From Anaerolineae bacterium (GTDB taxonomy: Bacteria; Chloroflexota; Anaerolineae; B4-G1; SLSP01), in the NCBI GenBank assembly GCA_026645815.1, contig JAPKMR010000011.1, forward strand, positions 35,486 to 99,485: a stretch of DNA of 64,000 nt. Direction: 5' to 3'. The translations under genes and the position numbers were made by a program. Shown here piece after piece: positions 29,705 through 46,097 of the stretch. Under the pieces are notes generated by a model. That model did not search any database and was not told the origin of the DNA. It saw only the letters and a program-made list of their open reading frames with translations. How positions within the stretch are numbered: position 1 is the first letter of the stretch; each line of letters begins with the position of its first letter.

Positions 29705-30676
29705 ATGGCTTTTTTCGATCTGCCGTTGGACGCCTTAAAAACCTATTCTCCGCCCCGCGAGGAGCCGGCGGATTTTGATGCCTTCTGGGCCAAGACGCTC
29801 GCCGAGGCGCGCGCCTACCCGCTTGCTCCGCGCTTTGAACCGGTGGACTATGGCTTACGCCAGCTTGAAACCTTCGACGTGACCTTTGCCGGCTACGGCG
29901 GACAGGCTGTGAAGGGCTGGTTGCTGCTCCCTCGCGAGCGCTCCGGGCCGCTGCCCTGTGTGGTGCAATATGTGGGCTACGGCGGCGGGCGCGGCTTTCC
30001 CGTTGAATGGCTGGTCTGGCCGAGCGTGGGTTACGCGCAGCTGGTGATGGATACCCGCGGACAGGGCAGTGCGTGGCGCTCCGGCGATACGGCCGATGTG
30101 GCTCCGGAGGGCATGTCGCCACACTATCCTGGCTTCATGACGCAGGGTGTGCTCGACCCGTATAGCTATTATTACCGCCGCGTCTTTGCGGATGCGGTGC
30201 GCGCGGTGGAAGCGGCGCGCGCGCATTCAGCGGTGGATGCGGGACGCGTGGCGATTGCGGGGGGCAGTCAGGGTGGGGGAATCACACTCGCAGTGAGCGG
30301 TCTCGTGCCCGATGTGGCGGCAGCGTTGCCCGATGTGCCCTTCCTGTGCCACTATCGCCGCGCGGTGGCGCTCACCGACCGCGATCCTTATCACGAGCTC
30401 ACTGCATATTGTCAGATTCACCGGGACAAGGTGGATACGGTGTTCCATACACTCTCGTATTTCGATGGGGTCAACTTTGCCGCACGTGCTGCGGCGCCTG
30501 CGCTTTTCTCGGTGGGCCTGATGGATGATATCTGCCCGCCCTCGACGGTGTACGCGGCCTACAATGTCTACGCTGGGCCTAAGGACATCCGCAACTACGC
30601 CTTCAACCAGCACGATGGCGGCGGAGCACACCACACCCTGGAGCAAATCCGCTATCTCGCTGCTTTGTGGGCGTAA
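29705..30676 (+). CDS. CE7-family acetyl esterase (acetylxylan esterase/cephalosporin-C deacetylase-like)
   Basis: [37 protein letters not shown] motif, GGSQGGG nucleophile elbow, [13 protein letters not shown]-terminal H in [10 protein letters not shown]. Confidence 0.9.
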
Positions 30677-30725: not shown

Positions 30726-32876
30726 ATGCACAACCATCATGTCATAGAAGAAATCTTCGATCCACTGACTCTGCGCGCTAAGGAGACGTTGTTCACCCTT
30801 GGAAATGGCTATTTGGGGACGCGCGGCGCCTTTGAGGAAGGTTACCCCGGAGAGCAGGCGATGACGCTCATCCATGGGCTTTTCGATGACGCTCCTATCT
30901 TTCATACGGAGCTGGTGAACGCGCCTAACTGGATCCATCTCGTCGTTGTCATCGGTGGAGAGCGCTTTCGTATGGAACGCGGCGAGATTCTTGGGTACCG
31001 CCGCGAACTAGACCTGGCAACCGGTGTCTTGCGGCGCACTGTGCGCTGGCGCAGCCCCGCCGGGCACACTGTGGAGCTCGCTTTTGAACGCTTTGCCAGC
31101 CTTGCCGATGCCCACGTCCTCGGCGTGCGCTGCCGTCTTACCTCGGTGGATTATGCCGGACCGGTAGAATTGCGCGCCGGGTCGCCTGGCTTTGTGGAAA
31201 ACACTGGACTGCTGCACTGGGAATGGCGGGATCAGAACCGTCTGGGGGCTGGTGGTGTGTACATGGAATTGCAGACGCGCGGTTCCCGGCAGGCGCTGGG
31301 GATGGCGACAGCCCTGCAGGTCGAGGGCGCAACGCTCACAGTGCAAGATTGTGATTGGCAACCGACCGTAGTGGCGGCGCTGGAGATTAAACCAGGGCAA
31401 ACGCTCATCGCGGATAAGCTCGTGGCAATCTATACTGGGCGCGATGTTCCGGATGTGCGTGCAGCGGCGAGCTATAAACTGGAGACCGCGGTTGTCGCAG
31501 GCTACGAAGTGTTGCGCGCTGCGAACGATGCTGCCTGGGCCACAGAGTGGGAATCTGCGGATGTCACCATCGAGGGGGATGATGAGGCGGACCTGGCGCT
31601 GCGCTATAGTCTCTTCCAGCTGCTTATTGCTGCGCCGCGCAATGATGAGCGCGCAAGCATCCCGGCGAAAGGCTTGAGCGGGTGGGGCTATCGCGGTCAC
31701 GTGTTCTGGGACACTGAAATCTTCATGCTGCCTCTATTCACCCTGGCGCGCCCAGAGTTGGCCCGCAACATGCTTACCTATCGCTACCATACCCTGCCCG
31801 GTGCGCGGCGCAAAGCACAGGCAAGTGGCTACGAGGGTGCGATGTACGCCTGGGAGAGTGCTGAGACTGGCGATGAGACCACCCCGCGTTGGGTCCCCGG
31901 TCCGGAAGGTGGCCTCATCCGTATCTGGTGCGGCGACATTGAGCTGCATATCACCTCGGATGTGGCGTATGCCGTGATCCAGTATTGGCGTGCTACTGGC
32001 GATGATGCCTTCATGCGTGATTATGGCGCGGAGATTCTCCTGGATACCGCGCGCTTTTGGGGTGCGCGCGCGGAGTGGCATGCGGAATCGGAGCGTTATG
32101 AAATCAACGATGTGATTGGTCCTGATGAATACCATGACCACGTCAACAATAGCGCTTATACCAACCGTATGGCGGTGTGGAATTTGCAAACCGCATTGGA
32201 GGCCTTTGATTGGCTGAAAGTGCACGCGCCAACCAGGGCCGCGGAGCTGGAATGCGCGCTTGACCTGACCCCTTCGCGGTTGGAACACTGGCGCGATGTC
32301 ATCGCGCGGATGTTTGTGCCTCACGATCCGGAAACGGGGCTTATTGAGCAATTCGATGGCTTTTGGGGCCTCAAATCGGTCAATCTGGCGGATTACGAAC
32401 CACGCACCAAATCACTGCAATTCTTGTTGGGGATCGAAGAGACACAGGGTTACCAGATTCTTAAGCAGCCCGATGTCCTGATGCTTCTCTACTTGCTTGA
32501 ATCCGAGTACGACACGGAAACCATCAAGCGTAACTGGGACTATTACACTCCGCGCACCGACTTGACCTACGGTTCCTCTCTGGGACCCGGTATTCAGGCG
32601 GCGCTCGCGGCGCGCCAGGGGGATGTGGAAGCAGCTTACGCGCACTTTATTCATTCTGCGCGCACGGATTTGCAGGATGTGCGCGGTAACTCGCATGAAG
32701 GCATCCACGCTGCCACCGCCGGTGGAGTATGGCAAGCCGTCATCTTCGGCTTTGGTGGCATCCGCATCACCGAAGAGGGACTCACCGCCGCTCCACGTCT
32801 ACCACAGGGCTGGACGCGCCTGCGTTTCCGGTTGCATTATCACGATCAACCGGTGGATTTCGATTTGCGACCGTAG
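30726..32876 (+). CDS. Glycoside hydrolase family 65 protein (disaccharide phosphorylase-like)
   Basis: TLGNGYLGTRG, RHVFWDTEIFMLPLF, VIGPDEYHDHVNNSAYTNRMAVWNL, KQPDVLMLLYLL. Confidence 0.92.
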   Translation: MHNHHVIEEIFDPLTLRAKETLFTLGNGYLGTRGAFEEGYPGEQAMTLIHGLFDDAPIFHTELVNAPNWIHLVVVIGGERFRMERGEILGYRRELDLATGVLRRTVRWRSPAGHTVELAFERFASLADAHVLGVRCRLTSVDYAGPVELRAGSPGFVENTGLLHWEWRDQNRLGAGGVYMELQTRGSRQALGMATALQVEGATLTVQDCDWQPTVVAALEIKPGQTLIADKLVAIYTGRDVPDVRAAASYKLETAVVAGYEVLRAANDAAWATEWESADVTIEGDDEADLALRYSLFQLLIAAPRNDERASIPAKGLSGWGYRGHVFWDTEIFMLPLFTLARPELARNMLTYRYHTLPGARRKAQASGYEGAMYAWESAETGDETTPRWVPGPEGGLIRIWCGDIELHITSDVAYAVIQYWRATGDDAFMRDYGAEILLDTARFWGARAEWHAESERYEINDVIGPDEYHDHVNNSAYTNRMAVWNLQTALEAFDWLKVHAPTRAAELECALDLTPSRLEHWRDVIARMFVPHDPETGLIEQFDGFWGLKSVNLADYEPRTKSLQFLLGIEETQGYQILKQPDVLMLLYLLESEYDTETIKRNWDYYTPRTDLTYGSSLGPGIQAALAARQGDVEAAYAHFIHSARTDLQDVRGNSHEGIHAATAGGVWQAVIFGFGGIRITEEGLTAAPRLPQGWTRLRFRLHYHDQPVDFDLRP

Positions 32877-33160
32877 GGGCGGGGCTTGTCCCCGCCCTCT
32901 GCCGGGTAACCCCACATGACAGAATGGGGGGCGACCACAACGGGGTGGTGTGAACATGGGCGACCACGATTGTGACCGCGGGGCTTGTCCCCGCCCTCTG
33001 CCGGGTAAGCCCCATGACAGAATGGGGGGCGACCGTAACGGGGTGGTGTGAACATGGGCGACCACGATTGTGACCGCGGGGCTTGTCCCCGCCCTCTGAA
33101 CCCCACATGACAGAATGGGGGCGACCACAAACAGGGCGACCACGAGGGTCGCCCCTACCG
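32873..33160. repeat. Tandem palindromic intergenic repeat, about 98-99 bp unit, about 2.5-3 copies
   Basis: GGGGCTTGTCCCCGCCCTCTG starts at 32881, 32980 and 33078; outer GTAGGGGCG / CGCCCCTAC inverted repeats. Confidence 0.85.
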
Positions 33161-33312
33161 TGCGGCGCGTTGTCACAACATATCCCATCTATCTTTGCAA
33201 TGCGCGGTCCCCGGTTCGTTTTTCTGTTTTTCAGCTCTTGACAAGATAACATTTCTGGTGTACAATGTTACAAAGTTATACCAATGTGCCTCATGAGATA
33301 CCAAAGAGAGCG

Positions 33313-34800
33313 ATGATAGATCGCAATTCACCTATTCCGATTTACTATCAGCTGATGTGTTATTTCAAAGAGCTGATTGAGGTCGGCGACCTGCGTCCGG
33401 GGGACCGTTTGCCTACGGAAATGGAGCTGTGTGAGCAGCACCGTGTCAGTCGGGCTCCTGTGCGACGCGCCCTTACCGATCTGGCGCGCGAGGGTTATAT
33501 TTACCGGCGCGCGGGGCAGGGCACCTTCGTTGCCCACATCAACACTTCCCTTGATGAACAACTTGATCTCCGCATGGTCACGCACCATGATATCCGTTGG
33601 TTGGCGACCTTAGAGCAAGCGGTCTATCTGTGGAATCAACTGCATCCGGAGCAACGGGTACGGTTGAATCCGACCATCTCTTCACGTAATGATTTCCATC
33701 ATGTGCTACGCCGCTTGGTGGCGCAGGGTAAAGCACCTGATATTGCGCCCATGGATTATGTTTGGATTCATGATTATGCCGCGGGCGGCTATCTGGCTTC
33801 GCCTGAGGCGCTCGATGGTCGTTGGGCGCGACAACTTGGTGAAGGGCTGGAGCCATTGGTGCGCCAGGGTAACGAGATGGACGGACGCCTGTATGGCATT
33901 CCGGTGCAGGCGGATGTGACCGGGCTGTGGTATCGCCGGGATTGGTTTGAGCAGGCGGGGCTAACCCCTCCGCGCACCTGGCAAGAATGGTTGACGCTGC
34001 TTGATTACTTCGCCCGACCCGAGATCAAGCAGCGTTTTGGGCATCGTTATGTCACCGCTTTTCCGGTCAGCGAGCTCGGTGGCGAAGCCACTATCAATTT
34101 ACTGATTCCCTTTGTTTGGGGGGCGGAGTCGGTGGGCGCATCTGTTGGTGGGGCAGGCGGCACCCTGGAGGCGTTGTTGCCAGGCCTGCAGGAGGCGCTG
34201 CGGTTTTTGCGCGAGATTACCATTGACCGCCGGCAATATCTGCCTCCTGATATGGCGGATACGCCCTGGTGGGATTTTCCTCCCATGCTCTCACAGGGGG
34301 TGGTGCCGATGATTTTGGGCGGGACCTATGAATGGCCCCGTATCCAGGAGGACAGTGATTGGGAAGATGAGCGCGAGGTGAACCGGCATCTGGGCTTTGT
34401 TCCTGTTCCACGCCCGAGTCTGGAGGCGCCCGCGGTTTGTTCGTTGGGCGGCACCAGCTGGGCTATCATGGCACAGTCTCCCAATCATGATTTGAGTCTG
34501 GAGATTCTTAAACTGGCGGCTAGCCAGGAGCTTTCGGCGGAATTCTGCGCGGAGAACTTGCAGATTTCGCCGTTTCGCGCGGTCAACCAGCGGATTACCT
34601 CCTCACAGCATCCCTGGTTGACATTGATTGTTCCATTGATGCAATGTGCGCGTTTGCGTCCGCAACTGGTCAACTATGCACAGCTCTCACGGGTATTGCA
34701 GGATATGGTGTATCGAGCGTTATGGCAGGGCGTCGAACTTGAAGAAACCTTGTCCCATACCGCGCGTCTGTTGCGGGTGTTGGTGGGACAAGTCCATTGA
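33313..34800 (+). CDS. GntR-type HTH fused to ABC family-1 solute-binding (PBP type 2) domain; cytoplasmic-looking regulator
   Basis: MIDRNSPIPIYYQLMCYFKELIEVGDLRPGDRLPTEMELCEQHRVSRAPVRRALTDLAREGYIYRRAGQGTFV followed by SBP-like sequence (GRLYGIPVQADVTGLWYRRDWFEQAGLTPPRTWQEWL... GGTSWAIMAQSPN); no signal peptide. Confidence 0.88.
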   Translation: MIDRNSPIPIYYQLMCYFKELIEVGDLRPGDRLPTEMELCEQHRVSRAPVRRALTDLAREGYIYRRAGQGTFVAHINTSLDEQLDLRMVTHHDIRWLATLEQAVYLWNQLHPEQRVRLNPTISSRNDFHHVLRRLVAQGKAPDIAPMDYVWIHDYAAGGYLASPEALDGRWARQLGEGLEPLVRQGNEMDGRLYGIPVQADVTGLWYRRDWFEQAGLTPPRTWQEWLTLLDYFARPEIKQRFGHRYVTAFPVSELGGEATINLLIPFVWGAESVGASVGGAGGTLEALLPGLQEALRFLREITIDRRQYLPPDMADTPWWDFPPMLSQGVVPMILGGTYEWPRIQEDSDWEDEREVNRHLGFVPVPRPSLEAPAVCSLGGTSWAIMAQSPNHDLSLEILKLAASQELSAEFCAENLQISPFRAVNQRITSSQHPWLTLIVPLMQCARLRPQLVNYAQLSRVLQDMVYRALWQGVELEETLSHTARLLRVLVGQVH

Positions 34801-34895
34801 GTGTGGTTGTCTGCTGCCCCGTGGCGGCAGAGTTAGTAGTGGGTTGCAGCTCACAAAATTAAAACGTGACTGAAACACGACTGGTGTGAGGCGCA

Positions 34896-34914
34896 GAAAC
34901 CGCAAGGCGGTTTC
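34896..34914. terminator. Short hairpin 3' of the GntR-SBP gene
   Basis: GAAACCGC-AAG-GCGGTTTC. Confidence 0.4.
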
Positions 34915-35044
34915 CCTTACCGCTCACGGTGGTTCTCCGCCGGATAATGTGAAAGGGGGTGGTTAGCAGCTACAGAAAATAGGATTGCCTTGAAAGTGTG
35001 TTAACGGTTATACCCATTCTAGTATTCTCTTAGGAGGAGATCGT

Positions 35045-37087
35045 ATGAAGAAGCAACTGTTTACCGTGCTCGGTGCACTGATCGTGCTCTCGATGCTCCT
35101 GTCGGCTTGCGGCGGCGCCAAGACCCCTGAACCGACGGCAGTCCCGACCCAGGAAGCGACGCAGGCTCCTGTGGTGACCGATGAAGCCCCGGCGCCTTCG
35201 GCCTATAAGCAGGCTCCCATGCTCGATGCCATGGGCCTGCCTCCTGTTGAGGAGCGCTTGCCCGTGGCTGAGGACCTCGTGGTCATCACCCCCGTGGAAT
35301 CCGTCGGCAAGTACGGCGGCACCTGGAACGCAGTGACGTGGGATGTGGGCGGCGCTGGCAACATCAAGATGAAGCTCTACGACCCGCCCATCCGCTGGAA
35401 GCCCGATCTTACGGGTTATGAGCCGGGCTTGGCCGCCAAGATGCCCGAGTGGTCCGATGGTGGCAAGACCATCACCTTCACCTTCCGTCGTGGCGTCAAG
35501 TGGTCCGATGGCGCGCCATTCACTACCGCCGACCTGAAGTTCTGGTGGGAAGATATGGCGAAGAACGAGGACTATAAGTCGAGCAACGTGCCGTGGTACG
35601 CGCGCAACGCGGATGGCACTCCCATCACCATGGAATTCCCTGATGATGTGACTTGGGTCCTGCACTTTGACAAGCCCCAGTACATTATGCCCTACATCCT
35701 GGCCCAGGGTTTCTGGGAGTGGGAACCACTCATGAAGCCGGCCCACTACCTCAAGCAATATCACCCCAACTACGATGGCAAACCCGGCGAGGAGGGCTAC
35801 ACGGAACTCGATCAGATGGATCGCTGGTTCCTGACTCCTGGCTATCCCTGTTTGATGGCTTGGTGTGTCAAGGAATACAAGCCCGGCGAGTACTGGCTCC
35901 TTGAGCGCAACCCCTACTACTGGAAGGTTGATACCGAGGGCAATCAACTGCCTTACATTGACTATCTCCGTGTTGAGGCCGTTGAGGACTCCGAGGTTCG
36001 TCTGCTGCAGGTGGCGCAGGGTCGCTATGACTTGGTCTATCGCTACAACGGCAGCCCGACGGACATCCCCTTCCTCATGGAAAACGCTGAAGCAGGAGAC
36101 TTCCGCCTGGTTCCCGGTTGGATGAACGGTGCAGGCGCCTGGCCTGGACTCATCGTCAACCAGGACTATAACACCGCCATGGATTACGATCCGGCGACCG
36201 AGTCCGAAGAGGACAAGGAAATTCGCGCTCTCCTGCGCAACCACGATTTCATGGTGGGTCTGTCCTACGCGATGGACCGGAAGCGCGTTGTGGATGTGGT
36301 GTGGGAAGGCATCGGCGAGGGCAAGCAGGCGACCATCAGCCCGCAATCCCCGCACTTCACCAGCTCTGACGAGGGCAAGAAGGTCTTCGAAGAGTGGGCG
36401 AACGCTTATGCCGAGTACAGCCCTGAGAAAGCCATGGCTGCCTTCGATGCCGCCGGCTTTGTGGACGCCGATGGCGATGGCATTCGCGACCTGCCCAGTG
36501 GCAAGCCCTTCACCCTCATCCTGCAGCTGAACGACTGGAGCGCCGAGAAGATCAACACCGACTTCCTGAATGTCTACAAACTTAACCTCGAGGCGGTCGG
36601 CGTCAAGGTCCTGATTGATAACGCGATTGGCACTGCTGATGGCGGCACCAACCGGGATCACGGTCTCTTCATGGTCGCCACGACCCACATTTCAGAGCTT
36701 GACCTCTGGACTTACCCCGACTGGATCTTCCCGGTCCGTGGTGCAGGCGAGGGCACGCGTGCCTTCCCGAAACAGGGTCTGTACTATGCCTCTGGTGGTG
36801 AGCGCGGGTGGGAACCTGAACCTGGTAGCCCTGCGGCGAAGTTGCAGGATCTCTACCGCCAGGGTCTGGCTACAGAGGATGAGCTGGAACGGCACAAGAT
36901 CATCTGGGAAGCCGTGAAGATCTACGTCGAAGAAGGTCCCTTCGTTATCGGCGCAGGCGGCGACCAGCCCATGCCTGTGATAGCGAAGAACTACATGCGT
37001 AACATCTACGAATTCGGCGTGCTCGGTCCCTGGGCGCCTGGTACCCCCGGCAACACCCATCCTGAGCAGTTCTGGATGGATAAGTAG
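35045..37087 (+). CDS. ABC transporter substrate-binding lipoprotein (SBP family 5)
   Basis: Lipobox LLSAC, MPEWSDGGKTITFTFRRGVKWSDGAPFTTADLKFWWEDM. Confidence 0.92.
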   Translation: MKKQLFTVLGALIVLSMLLSACGGAKTPEPTAVPTQEATQAPVVTDEAPAPSAYKQAPMLDAMGLPPVEERLPVAEDLVVITPVESVGKYGGTWNAVTWDVGGAGNIKMKLYDPPIRWKPDLTGYEPGLAAKMPEWSDGGKTITFTFRRGVKWSDGAPFTTADLKFWWEDMAKNEDYKSSNVPWYARNADGTPITMEFPDDVTWVLHFDKPQYIMPYILAQGFWEWEPLMKPAHYLKQYHPNYDGKPGEEGYTELDQMDRWFLTPGYPCLMAWCVKEYKPGEYWLLERNPYYWKVDTEGNQLPYIDYLRVEAVEDSEVRLLQVAQGRYDLVYRYNGSPTDIPFLMENAEAGDFRLVPGWMNGAGAWPGLIVNQDYNTAMDYDPATESEEDKEIRALLRNHDFMVGLSYAMDRKRVVDVVWEGIGEGKQATISPQSPHFTSSDEGKKVFEEWANAYAEYSPEKAMAAFDAAGFVDADGDGIRDLPSGKPFTLILQLNDWSAEKINTDFLNVYKLNLEAVGVKVLIDNAIGTADGGTNRDHGLFMVATTHISELDLWTYPDWIFPVRGAGEGTRAFPKQGLYYASGGERGWEPEPGSPAAKLQDLYRQGLATEDELERHKIIWEAVKIYVEEGPFVIGAGGDQPMPVIAKNYMRNIYEFGVLGPWAPGTPGNTHPEQFWMDK

Positions 37088-37106
37088 TCGTTGCTGCTGA
37101 TGTTTT

Positions 37107-37141
37107 CCCTGTGGCGGGTGACATATCTGCCCGCCACAGGG
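37107..37141 (+). promoter_or_regulatory. Intra-operon hairpin between SBP and permease genes
   Basis: CCCTGTGGCGGG-11 nt-CCCGCCACAGGG then CAGTTTTG. Confidence 0.65.
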
Positions 37142-37344
37142 CAGTTTTGATCAAAGCGTTTTTGTGGCGGAAAAGTCGCTGCAAAAGCGTGGTCTTTTAT
37201 AGCGTAATTCAGGTTATGGTCAGCTGACCGGCGACCGGGGACAGCAGACGGTCTGGACCACAATCCCGGTCTCCGGTCTCCCGTCATCGGTCAGCCGAAT
37301 GTGTCCATTGGCTTAGCGGAAGTTTCTCTCTTAAGGAGGTAGCG

Positions 37345-38331
37345 ATGCTGTCGTATATCGCGAGACGGTTAGTCTATATGGTGATTATGATTATCCTCGT
37401 CTCCTTCGTCAGCTTCCTCATTATTGAATTGCCCCCAGGTGATTTCCTGACGATTAAGATCCAGCAGCTCCAATCCCGTGGCGATATGAGCGCTTTGTTG
37501 CGAATTGATGAGTATCGCGCGCGGTACAAACTTGATCAGCCCGTGCTCACGCGCTATTGGAACTGGATCACAAATTTCGTGAAGGGAGATTTTGGGGAGT
37601 CGTTCGAGTTTGAGCGTCCCGTGAAGGAGATTATTGGGCAGCGCGCACTGATGTCTATGCTGCTGGCGTTATCCAGTATCATCATCGTATGGTGCCTGGC
37701 GATACCTATAGGAGTCTACTCGGCAACCCACCAATATTCCCTGGGAGATCAAGTGGTCACCACGATCAGTTTTCTCGGGTTGGGTATGCCGGGTTTCTTG
37801 CTGGCGTTGCTGGTGCTCTTTTTCGCCATGATGGTGCTCAAGGTCGAGGTTGGCGGGCTTTTCTCGCGCGAATTCGCAGATGCTCCCTGGAGCCTGGCCA
37901 AGGTCTGGGACTTGCTCAAGCACCTCTGGATTCCGGCGTTGATCAGCAGCGTCACCGGCACCGCGGGCCTGGTCCGCATCATGCGCGGCAACCTGCTCGA
38001 GACTCTGGGGCAGCCCTTCGTGGAAGCGGCCCGTGCCCGTGGTCTCAAGAGCGGCGCGGTGACCTGGAAGCACGCTGTGCGCGTCGCCATCAACCCCCTT
38101 GTCGTTATCCTCACCTCTGAGGCGCTGCCCAGCATTGTGGCAGGCGATGCCCTCGTGGCGACGGTGTTGAACTTGCCTACGGTGGGCCCCTTGTTTGTCA
38201 CCGCGCTGAAGTCACAGGACATGTTCCTGGCGGGCACGGTTCTGATCTTCATCGTGCTGATGACGATGATTGGCACGTTGATTGGCGATCTCACCCTGGC
38301 GGCGCTTGACCCGCGCATCCGGCTGGATTAG
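37345..38331 (+). CDS. Opp/Dpp-type ABC transporter permease (OppB/DppB-like)
   Basis: MLSYIARRLVYMVIMIILVSFVSFLIIELPPGDF; EAA loop LGQPFVEAARARGLKSGAVTWKHAVRVAINPL. Confidence 0.92.
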   Translation: MLSYIARRLVYMVIMIILVSFVSFLIIELPPGDFLTIKIQQLQSRGDMSALLRIDEYRARYKLDQPVLTRYWNWITNFVKGDFGESFEFERPVKEIIGQRALMSMLLALSSIIIVWCLAIPIGVYSATHQYSLGDQVVTTISFLGLGMPGFLLALLVLFFAMMVLKVEVGGLFSREFADAPWSLAKVWDLLKHLWIPALISSVTGTAGLVRIMRGNLLETLGQPFVEAARARGLKSGAVTWKHAVRVAINPLVVILTSEALPSIVAGDALVATVLNLPTVGPLFVTALKSQDMFLAGTVLIFIVLMTMIGTLIGDLTLAALDPRIRLD

Positions 38332-38343
38332 GAGGTTACGGCA

Positions 38344-39498
38344 ATGGAAGAATCTCAAGTTACCCAAAATGTGCCTGAACCCGTCGAGAAAGCCAAGGGT
38401 CAAGAGCTCAGCCAGGCATACTGGAGCCTGGTGTGGTGGAAGTTCAAGAAGAACAAGCTCGCTATCGTCGGCGGCATTCTCATCCTTCTCTTCTATACCG
38501 TCTGTGGCTTGTTTCCGGAGTTCTTCGCTCCTTATCTGGTAGATTATCAATCGGACCACCTGGAGTCACGCCCGCAGCCGATCGTCTTCAAAAATATCGA
38601 AGGAGACTTCAGCCTGCGCCCCGCTGTTTACGGCACGACTCAAGAATTGGACTTGGTGGCGCGGCAGCGCACCTGGGTGGTGGATGAATCCCAGATTTAT
38701 CCGCTCTCGCTCTTTGTTAAGGGGCAGCCCTATAAGCTGTTGGGCCTGATTCCGGGGAGTATCCACTTGTTCGGTGTAAATACGGAGAAATATCCGGAAG
38801 CAACGATGTTCCTCTTTGGCACTGACCGGGTGGGCCGTGACATGCTCTCGCGCATTCTGTACGGTGGGCGCCTATCATTGCTGTTGGGCTTGGTGGGTCA
38901 GGCTTTGACCCTTGTCCTGGGCCTGGTGATGGGGGCGATTTCCGGCTATTACGGCGGTACGGTGGATATTCTGGTGCAGCGCTTGGTGGAATTTGTGGGC
39001 GCCTTCCCTGATATTCCACTCTTCATGGCGCTCGCGGCAGCGATCCCGGTTACGTGGTCGCCGATTGCCGTGTATTTCATGTTGACCCTGATTCTCGTTT
39101 TCATTCGCTGGGGTGGGTTGGCTCGGCAGGTGCGCGGGCTTATCCTCACTCTGCGCGAACGTGAGTATGTCCTGGCGGCGCAAAGCGCTGGCGCCAGCGA
39201 CCGGCGGATTATGTTCCGCCACCTGGTACCCGGCACCTTGAGCCATGTTATCGTCATCGCGACACTGATGATCCCCGGCATGATCCTCTCGGAGACCGCG
39301 CTATCCTGGTTGGGCCTGGGCCTGCGCCCGCCGCTCACCAGCTGGGGCGTCCTGCTTCAGGAGGTCAGTTCCGTGCGCGTGATCCGCTTCGCGCCGTGGA
39401 TGTTGATTCCGATCCCCTTCATTATTGTGGCCGTGTTGGCCTTCAACATGTTGGGCGACGGGCTGCGCGATGCCATGGATCCTTACGGTGGGCGGTAG
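38344..39498 (+). CDS. Opp/Dpp-type ABC transporter permease (OppC/DppC-like)
   Basis: FGTDRVGRDMLSRILYGGRLSLLLGLVG; EAA loop REREYVLAAQSAGASDRRIMFRHLVPG. Confidence 0.92.
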   Translation: MEESQVTQNVPEPVEKAKGQELSQAYWSLVWWKFKKNKLAIVGGILILLFYTVCGLFPEFFAPYLVDYQSDHLESRPQPIVFKNIEGDFSLRPAVYGTTQELDLVARQRTWVVDESQIYPLSLFVKGQPYKLLGLIPGSIHLFGVNTEKYPEATMFLFGTDRVGRDMLSRILYGGRLSLLLGLVGQALTLVLGLVMGAISGYYGGTVDILVQRLVEFVGAFPDIPLFMALAAAIPVTWSPIAVYFMLTLILVFIRWGGLARQVRGLILTLREREYVLAAQSAGASDRRIMFRHLVPGTLSHVIVIATLMIPGMILSETALSWLGLGLRPPLTSWGVLLQEVSSVRVIRFAPWMLIPIPFIIVAVLAFNMLGDGLRDAMDPYGGR

Positions 39499-39510
39499 GA
39501 GGAGGATGCA

Positions 39511-40584
39511 ATGGCTGAGCCTTTACTAGAAATCAAGAATATCCATGTAGAATTTGAGGTGCGCGACGGCATCGTGCATGCCGTAGATGGCATCTCCTAC
39601 ACCGTCAACCGGGGTGAGACCATCGGCGTGATCGGTGAGAGCGGTTGTGGCAAATCCATCACCGCCAAAGCCGCGATGCAGATGTTGCCCAAGCCTGGCA
39701 AGGTGACCCAGGGCGAGATTCTCTATCATCGCCGCAGTAAGTTTGATCCTTCAAAACCCACGGAAGTGCTCAACATCACGAAACTGGATCCTGATGGTGA
39801 CCTGATCCGCCAGATTCGTGGCGGTGAGTTCGCCATGATCTTCCAGGAACCGATGAGCTCGCTGACGCCGGTGTATACGACTGGCACTTTGATCAACGAG
39901 GCGCTCTTCATCCATCGTAAGATGCCGGTGACTGTGGGCGAGGGCATGGCGCAGAAGATCATGCAGTATCGCCCCGTCACGAAGGAAGAGGCGCGCGAGA
40001 TCGCCATTGAAATGCTGCGCAAGGTGGGCATCCCCAAGCCGCATGAGCGGGTGGATGTGTACCCGCACCAGCTCTCCGGCGGGCAGCGGCAGCGCGTGAT
40101 GATCGCCATCGCACTCTCTTGCGAACCCTTCATGCTGATAGCGGATGAGCCGACAACGGCGCTCGACGTCTCCATCGAGGCGCAGATTCTCGACCTGATG
40201 CGCGAACTGCAGGAATCGGTGGAAATGTCTATCATGTTCATCACTCACAACCTGGGTGTGGTCGCGGAAATGGCCAAGGAAATCGTGGTCATGTACATGG
40301 GCAAGCAGGTGGAGAGTTCGGAGACGGTGCGTGTTTTCTACGAACCCAAGCACCCGTATACCCGCGCGCTGTTACAGTCCATTCCGAAGGTGGGCAAGCG
40401 CACGGGCGAGCGCCTGGCTTCGATCAAGGGTATGGTGCCCGATCCCTTCCATCTGCCGACCGGCTGTGTCTTCCACCCACGGTGCCCTTCTTTCATGCCT
40501 GGCAAGTGCGATCGCATTGTGCCGACTTGGAAAGAGGCGGAACCGGGGCACTGGGTTCGCTGTCTGTTGTACGAGGATGTATGA
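39511..40584 (+). CDS. Opp/Dpp-type ABC transporter ATP-binding protein (OppD-like)
   Basis: [51 protein letters not shown]. Confidence 0.93.
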   Translation: MAEPLLEIKNIHVEFEVRDGIVHAVDGISYTVNRGETIGVIGESGCGKSITAKAAMQMLPKPGKVTQGEILYHRRSKFDPSKPTEVLNITKLDPDGDLIRQIRGGEFAMIFQEPMSSLTPVYTTGTLINEALFIHRKMPVTVGEGMAQKIMQYRPVTKEEAREIAIEMLRKVGIPKPHERVDVYPHQLSGGQRQRVMIAIALSCEPFMLIADEPTTALDVSIEAQILDLMRELQESVEMSIMFITHNLGVVAEMAKEIVVMYMGKQVESSETVRVFYEPKHPYTRALLQSIPKVGKRTGERLASIKGMVPDPFHLPTGCVFHPRCPSFMPGKCDRIVPTWKEAEPGHWVRCLLYEDV

Positions 40585-40598
40585 GGAGGTAGGGCAAA

Positions 40599-41642
40599 AT
40601 GGCTGAACGCATAACAACCAAGAGGGACATTATTCTGGATGTGAAGGGGATGAAGAAATGGTTCCCCATCCAGAAGGGCATGCTCAAGAAGGTTGTGGGG
40701 CATGTAAAAGCCGTTGACGACGTGAGCTTCTACCTCCGTGAGGGTGAAACTCTGGGCCTGGTAGGTGAAAGCGGCTGCGGCAAGACGACCGTGAGCCGTA
40801 CCATCATCCGCCTTTACGAACCCACCGCTGGCACGGCGTACTTCCAGACCAGCCTGTTTTCGGCTGACGGCAAGCCGGAAATGGTCAACATCTTCGACCT
40901 GGATAAGGAGCAGATGAAGCGCATCCGCCGTGAGGTTGCGATGATCTTCCAGGATCCCATCAACTCGCTCAACCCGCGCATGTCGGTCTTCGATATTGTT
41001 TCGGAGCCGATGGTCATCCATGGTGTGCCGATTGGTCCTGAGATGGAGGATACGGTCACCACTCTGCTGGAGCGGGTTGGGTTGCGCAAGGAGCACATCC
41101 GCCGTTACCCACACGAATTCTCTGGCGGGCAACGTCAGCGCATCGGCATTGCGCGTTCACTTTCGATGAACCCCAAGATCATCTTCTGCGATGAGCCTGT
41201 CTCTGCGCTGGATGTCTCCATTCAAGCCCAGACGTTGAATCTGTTGCAGGACTTGCAGGCGGACTTCAACCTCTCCTATGTCTTTGTGGCGCACGACTTG
41301 AGCGTGGTGCAGCATATCTCCGACCGTGTTGCCGTGATGTACGTGGGCAAAATCTCGGAGCTTGCGCATTCGGATGCACTCTACAATGATCCGCTCCATC
41401 CCTACACCGAGGCGCTGATGTCTTCGGTGCCCAAGCCCGATCCAAAGTACCAATCCGAACGCATCATCATGCAGGGCGACGTGGCAGATCCTTCTAACCC
41501 GCCGCCGGGCTGCTACTTCCATCCACGCTGCCGTTACGCCGTGGACAAGTGCAAAATTGAGACACCAGAGTACCGGGAGCTCAAACCGGATCACTTTGTA
41601 GCTTGCCATCGTGCTGAAGAGCTCAAACTGAAGGGGGTGTAA
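40599..41642 (+). CDS. Opp/Dpp-type ABC transporter ATP-binding protein (OppF-like)
   Basis: [56 protein letters not shown]. Confidence 0.93.
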
Positions 41643-41643
41643 C

Positions 41644-42081
41644 ATGGTTGTGGATGTGAAATCGACGGTCGGGTTGTTGCAACGCACGCCGTTGTTCAAC
41701 GGCTTGGATAAGCGGCAGCTGGAAAGCCTGGCGAGGCGCTTTGTCGAGCGCAAATTCGATGCTGGGGAGACCATCGTCACGCAGGGGCGCGGCGGTGAGG
41801 GCTTCTTTGTCGTTGTCTCCGGGCGCGCCGAGGCCATCCGCGAGCACGCCGATGGCGAGAAGACGGTGCTAAACCCGCTGGAGCCAGGCGATTTCTTCGG
41901 CGAGATGGCGCTCCTTTCAGAAGGCATTCGCACGGCATCGGTTGTTGCTGCGGAGCCTACCACCTGCCTCGTGTTGGCTCGCTGGGATTTTCTGGGCGTG
42001 CTGCGTGAGGACGCCGAGATGGCGGTGGTGATTTTGCAGGAACTCGCGGAGCGCTTTGTGCGGGTGTTGAACACGCTGTAG
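41644..42081 (+). CDS. Single-domain cyclic-nucleotide-binding (cNMP/Crp cassette) protein
   Basis: Phosphate-binding cassette DFFGEMALLSEGIRTASVVA; starts 2 nt after the OppF-like stop. Confidence 0.9.
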   Translation: MVVDVKSTVGLLQRTPLFNGLDKRQLESLARRFVERKFDAGETIVTQGRGGEGFFVVVSGRAEAIREHADGEKTVLNPLEPGDFFGEMALLSEGIRTASVVAAEPTTCLVLARWDFLGVLREDAEMAVVILQELAERFVRVLNTL

Positions 42082-42137: not shown

Positions 42138-42326
42138 TTCATTTTGGGCGCGTGTATTTGTTCATCTTGCACAAAAATGACAACCCTCGTAGACCGCTCG
42201 CAGAACCAGATCCGGCGCCAAATGATCTGTCGTATACCTGGCGGATGTGAATTGCTTTCTCCGAGCTCTGTGCTTAAATGAGGTGAATCCGCCTTTATAA
42301 CGGTGGTCTCCCTGTCCTGGAGTCCG

Positions 42327-45300
42327 ATGATGCCAACACCGATAACCTGTCCGAGTTGTGGTTTCGAAAGCCCTCCCGGCATGCTGTTCTGTGGCATGTG
42401 TGGTGCACGCCTGGCGCGCGCTTGTCCTGCCTGTGGTTTTCATAACCCGCCCGATTTTCGCTTCTGCGGCATGTGTGGCGCGGCGCTAGAGCCTGCGCCT
42501 GCAGCTGAGGGGCTCCTTCCGGCATCCCTGGCGCAAGGTGCTCCTTCTGTTGAGATGCCCGCGCCGTCATTGCTCGTAGCTGAACCAGGCGCTGCACAGC
42601 TGGAGGGTGAGCGCCGCGTCGCCACTATTGTCATCGCCGATGTGCGTGGTTCTACCCAGCTCCTGGAACAGGTGGGTACTGAACGGTGGGTCGGGCTCAT
42701 GAATCATGTTTTGCAGCTGCTTGAAGCAGAAGTTTACCGTCTGGGTGGCGAGATCAGTCAGTTCCGTGGCGATGGGCTGGTGGCTTTCTTTGGGACTTCG
42801 GCGGTGCATGAGGATGACCCCGAGCGGGCAGTGATGGCGGCGTTGCGGATGCAGCGCGCTGCAAAATCCTATGCCGCGGAACTGGCAGGGCAGGGGCTGG
42901 AATTGAGTCTGCGCATCGGCGTCAATACGGGTGACGTCATTGTCGCCAGTGTGGGCGGACAGCGTTATCGTGAGGATACCGCCATGGGTGAAGCCATTAC
43001 CGTGGCGGCGCGTATGGAATCTTCTGCGGAACCCGGCACCGTTTTGGTCAGTGAGAGCACATATCGCCTCGCTCAACCCTATTTTGCCTGGGAGCCTCTG
43101 GGTGAGATTAGTGTCAAAGGGCTGCGGGAGCCGGTGACCGTCTATCGCCCGCTTGCGCTGGCGACGGATACGGATCTAGTTCTACGAGAGGAACTCTATC
43201 GTCTCACTCCGCCTCTCATTGGGCGCGAGCGTGAATTCGCACAATTGGTGCGCTGTATTGAAGCGCTCCAGGGTGGGCGCGGGGGCATCGCCCTCATTAC
43301 CGGCGAAAAGGGCATGGGAAAATCTTTCCTGGTTGCACAGGTGCGGGAACACCTCACCCGTGAGGCGATGCTGCGGGCGGAAGCACGGCACCGTGACGCG
43401 CAACTTGCCACCGTGGGGGTGGAAGCGCCCTTGCCCCCAGACGCCCTCTGGTTGCGTGGTCGCTGCCGTTCCTACGACCAATCCTGGCCCTATTCCATGT
43501 GGCGCGATATGCTCCAGAACTGGCTTAACATGCGTCGTGATGAACCCCGTGAGGCATTACGTGACCGTCTCCGTGAGCAAACACAGCAGCTCTGGGGTGA
43601 GGATTTTATCGAAACCTATCCCTTCCTGGCGGCGCTCCTCGCGCTGCCGTTGGAAGAGGGTGTTATCGAGCGGGTGAGCCATTTGGATGCCGAAAGCCTC
43701 AAGCGGCAATTCTTCCGTGCCATTCGTTCATGGGTGATGGCTTTGGCGCAACGTGGTCCGCTGGTGCTGTTATTTTCGGATGTGCATTGGGTGGATAGCA
43801 CTTCCCTGGAGTTGCTACAGCACTGCTTGCCTCTTTGCGATACTCTGCCCTTGCTCTGGCTCGTCGTCTTCCGCCCCGATCGCAACTCGCCTGTCTGGCA
43901 TTTCCGGCACTATGTGGGTACCGAATATCCGCACCGGTTGACCCAAATCTCCATTCCTCCGCTCAACGCCGCAGAAAGTCTGGAATTGCTGGATTGGTTG
44001 ATTGGCGTCAGGACTTTGCCGGAAAGGGTCAGTCAGCTGGTGTTGCAGCGTGCCGAGGGCAACCCTTACTATTTGCATGAGCTGGCAAACGCTTTGATTG
44101 CACAGGGCGTCCTCGTGCGCGATGCTGATACCGGCGAGTGGCAGCTGACACGCCCAATCACTTCTCTGGATTTGCCGGATAGCTTGCAGACTCTGTTGCT
44201 CGCACGACTCGACCGGCTTGAGGCGGAGGTGCGGCACGTGCTCCAGGCGGCATCGGTCATTGGCGCCGTTTTTTGGCAGAAAGCGTTGCGCGCGCTGACG
44301 CAGGACGAGTCTACCTTGAAGCAGCATCTGACCCAGCTACAGCGGGAGCAACTCATCGAGGAGCGTCAGCTCGTCCCCGATTTGGGGATGGAATACGCCT
44401 TCACCTCACTGTTGCTCCGCGAGGTGGCATACGATAGCCTGCTCAGTACGCAGCGTGCTGCCTATCATCTAAAAGTGGCGGAGGCTTTGGAGCCACTTCT
44501 GGATAGCAGCAAGGAGCATCCTCAGCGTTATGGCATGGTCGCCTACCATTACCGGCAAGCGGGCGATTTAGAGAAGGCGCTGGATCTCACGCTCAAGGCT
44601 GCGGAGCAGGCACGCCGGGTGTATGCGAATGCGGAAGCTTTGGAACACTACAGCCATGCGTTGATGCTGCTGGATTCTCTCGGTCAGAGTGCCGTAAGCG
44701 ATGAAGCACGCTATGCGCTTGATCGGCAACGTTTGTCCATCCTCAATTTGCGCCGTGAAACCGCTTACTTGTTGGGCGAAATGGAATCTGGGCGCGATGA
44801 TGCGCGCGCGATGTTGGATTTAGCGCAGCAGCTGGAACGGGATCCGGTGCTAATGGTGGATGCTCTGCTGGAGCAACCGGGCGTTGGCAGCATTCAGGGG
44901 CGCGAGGAACTTGAAGCCGGTGTGAACCTGGCGCATCAGGCATTGGATCTTGCGCGCCGGCTAGAGGATGCGCATCGCGAGATGCGGGCATTGATGGCGT
45001 TGTCAAACTTGTATAATCTCCGCAACGATCCGGCGTGGCGTTGGACCGGTGAACAGGCACTAGAACTGGCACGCCGTTTGGGAGATCGGCGGGCGGAAGT
45101 GAAGATCCTGTTGCGCATGGGAGAGGCTTATGGTGCGGATGATCTTGAGCACAGCATGGCATGTTTGGAGGCAGCGTTGCCAATTGCCAAGGGTTTGCAC
45201 GACAAATCCGCGGAAATTCGGCTGCTCAGCGCTTTGGGCACACCGCTTGAGCGCCAGGGAGACTACTATCGCCTCTTGACGGAGATGGAGGAAAAGCGCC

Positions 45301-46097
45301 TGCACCTCAGTCGTGAAATCGGCGATCGCTTTGCTGAGGGTAGTGCGCTGATGAACTGTGGGCAGATTCGGGGTTTGTGGTTGGGGGATTATGCCTTAGG
45401 GCTGGAGTTGGAGGAAGAGGCTTTGCGCATTTGGGAGAATATCATCGGTCGGCTCTATCCGCTGTTGCGCATCGTGCAGTTGCACACCGAGATGGGCAAC
45501 TTTGGGGCAGCGCTGGCAGCTCTTGCGGAGGCGCAACCTGCAGGCGAGCGCGAGGTTCGCGATATGGGACGCGCTGGTTTGGGATTGGTTTCGGCGATTC
45601 TCTTCAATGCGATGGGTGATGAGACCCATTTGCGGCAGGCGCTCGATGCTGCCGGTTGGGTGCACCGGATGGCGGCGGATAGCCTGGTCTCGCGACAGTA
45701 CAAGATGGCAGCCCTGTGCGAAATCGCGGAATCACACCTGCGATTGATGGAGATTGTAGCAGATGAAAATGAGAGGGAATTCCACCGCGTTGAAGCGCTC
45801 ATTGCCTCAGGCGTTGCTTTCGACTTGTATCAGGGTTTCGGCTTTGTGCAGATTGTGGAATGCACTAGCGAGGAGATTTTGTTCCGTCACGCGCTGGCGC
45901 TGCAAGCGAATGGGCGCGTGGAGGAATCACAGGATATGGTGCAGCGGGCGCACGCGGAGATGTTGCGTAAGCATGCGTTGATCCCCGCCGGTACCGCTTT
46001 CCACCGCACTTATCTGGAGGCGATAGCCCTCCACCGGGAGATTCAGACCGCTTATGACGGCTTATCCTCTCTCGCAGACCTCACGGGAAATTCTTGA
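42327..46097 (+). CDS. Zinc-ribbon - class III nucleotide cyclase-like - AAA ATPase - TPR protein (paralog 1)
   Basis: Two CPxCG...FCGMCG zinc ribbons; ATIVIADVRGSTQL...FRGDGLVAFFG...TAMGEAITVAARM; Walker A GEKGMGKS; TPR-like C-terminus. Tabulated start 42303. Confidence 0.88.
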   Translation: MMPTPITCPSCGFESPPGMLFCGMCGARLARACPACGFHNPPDFRFCGMCGAALEPAPAAEGLLPASLAQGAPSVEMPAPSLLVAEPGAAQLEGERRVATIVIADVRGSTQLLEQVGTERWVGLMNHVLQLLEAEVYRLGGEISQFRGDGLVAFFGTSAVHEDDPERAVMAALRMQRAAKSYAAELAGQGLELSLRIGVNTGDVIVASVGGQRYREDTAMGEAITVAARMESSAEPGTVLVSESTYRLAQPYFAWEPLGEISVKGLREPVTVYRPLALATDTDLVLREELYRLTPPLIGREREFAQLVRCIEALQGGRGGIALITGEKGMGKSFLVAQVREHLTREAMLRAEARHRDAQLATVGVEAPLPPDALWLRGRCRSYDQSWPYSMWRDMLQNWLNMRRDEPREALRDRLREQTQQLWGEDFIETYPFLAALLALPLEEGVIERVSHLDAESLKRQFFRAIRSWVMALAQRGPLVLLFSDVHWVDSTSLELLQHCLPLCDTLPLLWLVVFRPDRNSPVWHFRHYVGTEYPHRLTQISIPPLNAAESLELLDWLIGVRTLPERVSQLVLQRAEGNPYYLHELANALIAQGVLVRDADTGEWQLTRPITSLDLPDSLQTLLLARLDRLEAEVRHVLQAASVIGAVFWQKALRALTQDESTLKQHLTQLQREQLIEERQLVPDLGMEYAFTSLLLREVAYDSLLSTQRAAYHLKVAEALEPLLDSSKEHPQRYGMVAYHYRQAGDLEKALDLTLKAAEQARRVYANAEALEHYSHALMLLDSLGQSAVSDEARYALDRQRLSILNLRRETAYLLGEMESGRDDARAMLDLAQQLERDPVLMVDALLEQPGVGSIQGREELEAGVNLAHQALDLARRLEDAHREMRALMALSNLYNLRNDPAWRWTGEQALELARRLGDRRAEVKILLRMGEAYGADDLEHSMACLEAALPIAKGLHDKSAEIRLLSALGTPLERQGDYYRLLTEMEEKRLHLSREIGDRFAEGSALMNCGQIRGLWLGDYALGLELEEEALRIWENIIGRLYPLLRIVQLHTEMGNFGAALAALAEAQPAGEREVRDMGRAGLGLVSAILFNAMGDETHLRQALDAAGWVHRMAADSLVSRQYKMAALCEIAESHLRLMEIVADENEREFHRVEALIASGVAFDLYQGFGFVQIVECTSEEILFRHALALQANGRVEESQDMVQRAHAEMLRKHALIPAGTAFHRTYLEAIALHREIQTAYDGLSSLADLTGNS

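Follow-up and report, generated by a model that had tools for sequence, protein, structure and literature searches.

Organization of the locus

The window, a 64-kb stretch of DNA analyzed at its full length, encodes a 495-residue protein in which a GntR-type DNA-binding head is joined to a family-1 solute-binding domain. The gene for this regulator lies between genes for an acetyl esterase and a GH65 phosphorylase on one side and an Opp-type ABC importer operon on the other (Table 1). Here and in the related loci, the importers are headed by separate SBP genes, not by the fusion protein. The solved relatives of the Opp SBP at 35045 include sugar binders, among them an alpha-galactoside-binding protein.

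Table 1. Features of the regulator gene and its surroundings (positions are those of the window)
Feature	Positions	Strand	Basis
AXE1-family acetyl esterase, upstream of GH65	29705..30676	+	Pfam; order kept in L011, L012, L018, L139
GH65 phosphorylase	30726..32876	+	Nearest solved structure: kojibiose phosphorylase 3wiq (5.5e-154)
Sigma-70-type promoter of the regulator, TTGACA-17-TACAAT	33238..33266	+	Promoter scan
Predicted operator TGTTACAAAGTTATACCA, 18 bp, from the last base of the −10 box	33266..33283	+	Motif scan
GntR-SBP fusion regulator, 495 aa	33313..34800	+	ORF, Pfam, alignment, AlphaFold model
GntR winged-helix DNA-binding domain, residues 13-73	33349..33531	+	Pfam, PDB sequence search
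Family-1 solute-binding sensor domain (maltose/trehalose-binding-protein-like), residues about 83-491	33559..34785	+	Pfam, AlphaFold, Foldseek, alignment
Codons of D148 to W151, matching D and W of the MalE3/TMBP 'D..W' motif	33754..33765	+	Alignment
Codon of R449, equivalent to Arg356 of the T. thermophilus protein; invariant in 58 relatives	34657..34659	+	Alignment
Opp-type (SBP_bac_5) lipoprotein SBP	35045..37087	+	Pfam, solved relatives
ABC permease 1	37345..38331	+	Gene order kept in L012, L013, L139
ABC permease 2	38344..39498	+	ORF list, gene order
ABC ATPase 1 (Opp/Dpp D type)	39511..40584	+	ORF list, gene order
ABC ATPase 2 (Opp/Dpp F type)	40599..41642	+	ORF list, gene order
Cyclic-nucleotide-binding domain protein, closing the conserved Opp block	41644..42081	+	

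The reading frame of the regulator ends at 34800 and may begin at either 33265 or 33313. Because the −10 box of the regulator promoter shares bases with the in-frame ATG at 33265, translation likely starts at 33313 (ATGATAGATCGC after AAAGAGAG), as the earlier note had it. Scanning the + strand from 32850 to 35100 revealed a single promoter, at 33238-33266, and a search of the same strand from 34800 to 35045 found neither a terminator nor a second promoter. One promoter and no terminator between regulator and importer fits their co-transcription.

The frame is intact, as full-length relatives of 32-95% identity can be aligned over their entire length. Although the genome assembly is fragmented (227 contigs), misassembly or a frame error that fused separate GntR and SBP genes has practically no probability: it is refuted by dozens of uninterrupted full-length homologues, found in two phyla, whose sensor domains form one clade.

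In most of the loci whose flanks could be read, ABC-importer genes lie next to the regulator. Specifically, a same-strand, SBP-first importer operon follows it in the window, in L012, L013, L014, L015 and L021, and in many other loci; the two are tail-to-tail in L088, L091, L092, L093 and L095, and no importer lies beside the regulator in L084, L143, L147 and L148. The importers of the window's clade are of the Opp type, and the order GH65-regulator-Opp recurs in several genera (L011, L012, L018, L100, L138, L139). The Bipolaricaulota blocks contain mannosylglycerate synthase, GH38, GH130 and glycosyltransferases, with a trehalose phosphatase in one locus.

Several other features of these loci were recorded. 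Short G+C-rich repeats, GGGCGACCAC and inverted GGGTCGCCC, occur in the gap between the GH65 and regulator genes (33000-33155) and also in L011. A 1264-residue protein with zinc ribbons, an adenylate/guanylate cyclase domain, AAA_16 and TPR is encoded directly after the cNMP-binding protein (42303-46097). Upstream of many importer SBP starts, often by 60-110 nt, is a Shine-Dalgarno-like stretch, AAGGAGGTG or AGGGGGTG (about 34953-34963 in the window; also L013, L014, L015, L019-L021 and L075-L086); it is additional to the SBP gene's own ribosome-binding site and is a possible leader element. Finally, in L088 and L090-L096 the gene nearest the regulator is mannosylglycerate synthase, tail-to-tail with it and beside an importer ATPase, an arrangement that suggests control of a mannosylglycerate pool in Bipolaricaulota.

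Domain architecture and fold

Pfam placed a GntR domain (PF00392) at residues 13-73 (E = 1.7e-18; 66.4 bits against a cut-off of 27) and a complete SBP_bac_1 domain at residues 98-406 (E = 2.4e-21; 77.5 bits against a cut-off of 26); SBP_bac_8 also matched (55.5 bits). The regulator had no Pfam match to UTRA (PF07702), FCD, aminotransferase or Peripla_BP, and SBP_bac_5 was likewise absent from its matches, which were GntR and SBP_bac_1 instead. Among the best 25 NCBIfam matches listed, there was no whole-protein model. In the winged helix, S46, R47, V50 and R51 were invariant in a 12-row alignment.

When PDB was searched by sequence, the nearest solved DNA-binding heads were those of NagR/YvoA, and the C-terminal part was nearest to the trehalose/maltose-binding protein 1eu8 (7e-17) and to MalE3 (6dtq). 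The AlphaFold model of the regulator (pLDDT 86.5, pTM 0.76) matched T. maritima MalE3 in Foldseek with E = 3.7e-26 and a TMt of 0.85. Thus, the winged helix and the family-1, PBP type 2 C-terminal part that the earlier note had read from the sequence were both recovered, and the structural check it proposed returned a MalE3-type fold. Its reading that the protein has no signal peptide also held, since the N-terminus is itself the winged helix.

Distribution and phylogeny

A scan of genome contigs yielded 11 full-length relatives with identities of 32-95%. Within the same class, a profile search at E 1e-60 found the fusion family in 39 of 396 genomes, and almost all of the matches spanned the full length. 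At E 1e-40, four of 400 genomes across the phylum matched, one of them only through the SBP part, as did 28 of 100 Bipolaricaulota genomes, at least 22 of which carry the intact fusion by a coverage count. Among 399 Pseudomonadota genomes searched at E 1e-30, all eight matches were to the SBP part only, with no fusion; phyla beyond these were sampled only through the close-relative scan. A single copy of the regulator is present in the window's genome, among seven GntR genes above the cut-off. Viral contigs matched the GntR head only, and no fusion was present among the plasmid matches listed; one doubtful plasmid match, H14, proved to be an ordinary SBP.

In a tree whose rows were picked by family membership and neighborhood rather than at random, and in which several SBPs were long-branched, 31 sensor domains formed a single clade (100/100) that excluded the 25 transport SBPs. 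In an earlier tree with 26 sensors, the support for this clade was 86/99. The single clade fits one fusion and speaks against a neighboring SBP having been captured repeatedly. Nor does the tree support copying of the sensor from the transport SBP next to it, as the sensors are separate from the transport SBPs.

The earlier note would have been refuted by an architecture both widespread and characterized. The family is indeed real in two phyla, and the papers searched held no characterized member. No paper naming a GntR-SBP_bac_1 regulator was found in this literature, with InterPro outside its scope. Within the same limits, a family with this pairing of head and sensor, this operator and this importer linkage is apparently undescribed.

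The predicted operator

Comparing the upstream DNA of the Chloroflexota regulators side by side revealed a palindrome, TGKTATA-N4-TATAMCA, at the −10 box. The window's TGTTACAAAGTTATACCA scores 13/14 against this pattern. With the pattern relaxed to accommodate it (TGKTAYANNNNTATACCA), 33266-33283 is the only exact match in the genome, and all further operator matches in the window carry three mismatches. In 364 kb of Chloroflexota loci, the same ones that define the family and from which the operator was derived, there were 13 matches at ≥13/14, every one at a regulator promoter and on or beside a good −35/−10 pair.

The pattern had no match at ≥13/14 in 268 kb of Bipolaricaulota loci. There, TTTGKYATAMCAAA gave 12 strong matches. 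Each lies shortly ahead of the adjacent importer's SBP gene, and 11 overlap the −10 of the SBP-gene promoter; TTTGKYATAMCAAA had no match in the 364 kb of Chloroflexota loci. The half-site TGKTA/TAMCA is common to both phyla at different spacings, 0 or 8 bp apart. An alternative reading of the 18-mer is as a pair of overlapping TGKTATAMCA copies shifted by 8 bp, a spacing that would resemble that of the NanR repeats.

Could this site belong to another regulator, with the fusion protein acting elsewhere or as an activator? The site is predicted from sequence, and neither operator type was found in L019, L020, L082, L084, L088 or L091-L095, so that the motif is missing in some subclades. Against this, it is confined to the family's regulator or importer promoters in both phyla, its half-sites are common to the two phyla at different spacings, and TGGTATA-type half-sites are known for GntR proteins (PMC4494728, PMC8012715). 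We consider assignment to another regulator very unlikely. The predicted site lies on the −10/start region, which suggests repression.

Within the window, the 33313 promoter alone has a predicted operator; the DNA upstream of 30726 and of 35045 yielded no site. Based on this distribution, read-through from the regulator's promoter probably governs the Opp operon, and the AXE1-GH65 pair is probably outside the regulator's control. The role of local carbohydrate sensor proposed in the earlier note fits the conserved gene order and the predicted operator.

The repeat GTTATACC before 35045 was rejected as an operator candidate, as its left half misfits and relatives L012 and L018 have no such repeat. 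A wider regulon in the genome gained no support: matches with at most two mismatches numbered 30 and 36 on the two strands against 22 and 16 for a reversed-pattern control, a small excess.

Other palindromic sequences were observed. In L086, a perfect 38-bp palindrome, CACCCCCTAAAATTTGTTATAACAAATTTTAGGGGGTG, immediately precedes the SBP gene on the minus strand (upstream of 7782) and encloses the 14-mer operator. L091-L095 and L087 lack the standard operator and have other palindrome-like sequences (AATGGTTTTGTCCATT type; GGTAATTATGTAACTACC) on the −10 box ahead of the SBP gene; these are possibly diverged operators.

The sensor pocket

The regulator was aligned with 1eu8, MalE3 and the T. thermophilus alpha-glycoside-binding protein, whose pocket positions R49, D118, W287 and R356 were taken from mutants named in PDB titles. 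R449 aligns with R356, D201 with D118, T381 with W287 and, less surely, F128 with R49. Of the sugar-contact positions in the T. thermophilus protein, two are thus replaced (Arg49 by F128 and Trp287 by T381), so the exact ligand is not readable from sequence.

These replacements are what one might expect if the SBP domain bound no ligand and served only for dimerization or as a scaffold. However, D148, R449, Y339, E258, G336, G337 and Q388 are invariant in 58 relatives, which places the sensor domain under constraint, and W151 is kept in 55 of them. Positions 341, 381 and 383 differ by clade: W341/T381/W383 in the GH65-Opp clade and K341/M381 in Bipolaricaulota. Invariant pocket positions (D148, R449, Y339) alongside clade-variable ones are what a functional pocket of differing specificity should show, and a purely structural role accordingly seems very improbable. 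The pattern at 341 tracks phylogeny as well as neighbors and is only a hint of specificity.

Proposed mechanism

Sequence comparison and structure prediction support the fusion, its fold, the conserved position of the operator and the linkage to importers. We infer DNA binding, dimerization, the ligand, co-transcription, and induction rather than corepression. In the reading that we favor, and hold to be fairly probable, the fusion protein acts in the cytoplasm as a one-component repressor, released by sugar, of its own gene and of the importer. A GntR dimer would bind the 18-bp palindrome at the regulator's own −10 box, blocking its own gene and, via read-through, the Opp-type importer operon (35045-42081). 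The C-terminal domain would close around the imported sugar, and this closure would shift the heads off the operator, derepressing import. The window's ligand is probably an alpha-glucoside; the sensed sugar would most likely be one that the neighboring GH65 phosphorylase can split. Relatives may use the same design for other solutes, with the Bipolaricaulota neighbors pointing to mannosylglycerate and related glycosides.

The opposite logic, in which bound solute tightens DNA binding and shuts the importer once solute accumulates, would suit a compatible solute. In Bipolaricaulota, mannosylglycerate synthase is frequently encoded in or beside the controlled block, so the family may handle solute pools as well as catabolism. 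In the window, however, the neighboring phosphorylase and esterase point to catabolism and induction, and in the well-characterized GntR repressor NanR the ligand causes release (PMC8012715). We therefore regard corepression as unlikely, and induction by release from the operator remains the preferred reading.

On balance, though by a modest degree of confidence, we view these proteins as a separate GntR subfamily of single origin, with a captured cytoplasmic glycoside sensor of the maltose-binding type, specificity retuned in the pocket, and half-site spacing changed between phyla. If true, this would be a new subfamily within one of the largest bacterial regulator families. It would also provide a handle on the control of glycoside and compatible-solute uptake in the little-studied Chloroflexota and Bipolaricaulota, since the predicted operator marks the controlled promoters. 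The sugar-binding fold is well understood, with many solved structures; ligand specificity is thus directly testable, and this would suit biosensor work.

Comparison with known systems

A review describes six GntR subfamilies, FadR, HutC, MocR, YtrA, AraR and PlmA, none with SBP_bac_1 (PMC4494728), in agreement with the earlier note's placement of the effector domain outside the usual set. PBP-type sensors on DNA-binding heads have precedents in SgrR/DsvR, in LysR regulators and in another GntR fusion of the window's genome.

The nearest precedent for the fusion is SgrR. SgrR/DsvR of enterics and Vibrio likewise combine an N-terminal HTH with a cytoplasmic solute-binding domain and are sugar-related, and SgrR represses its own gene (PMC13060122). 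Their sensor is SBP_bac_5, whereas the window protein has a GntR head and an SBP_bac_1 sensor. LysR regulators carry PBP II domains (PMC5882156). AraR, chimeric in origin, also pairs a GntR head with a periplasmic-binding-type sugar sensor (PMC4494728); that sensor is a LacI-type PBP type I, while the window protein's is PBP type II of the maltose-binding family.

HutC-type repressors (NagR/YvoA, DasR) provide the closest solved head. The Bipolaricaulota operators (GT-TATA-AC) agree with the HutC spacing GT-N4-AC (PMC4494728), but the Chloroflexota operators have longer spacing. The HutC type has UTRA, which is present in another GntR protein of the window's genome; the window protein lacks UTRA, and its sensor fold is unrelated. 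NanR binds TGGTATA half-sites at a promoter, and ligand weakens its repression (PMC8012715). The predicted window operator has like half-sites, but as an inverted repeat rather than direct repeats, and the effector domains differ.

Within the same genome, L037 (G000:C194:78570-78761 and following) likewise joins a GntR head to a PBP-superfamily domain, PF12727 PBP_like (202 bits). This is a separate, shorter family to which the window protein has no match. MalE3/TMBP share the window protein's fold across the full domain (TMt 0.84-0.85) but are exported importer parts, whereas the window protein has a DNA-binding head and no export signal. As SgrR/DsvR, LysR and the GntR-PF12727 protein all pair DNA-binding heads with PBP-type sensors, the principle is already known. 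The parts are of known kinds; judging by the papers searched, their combination appears new for GntR regulators.
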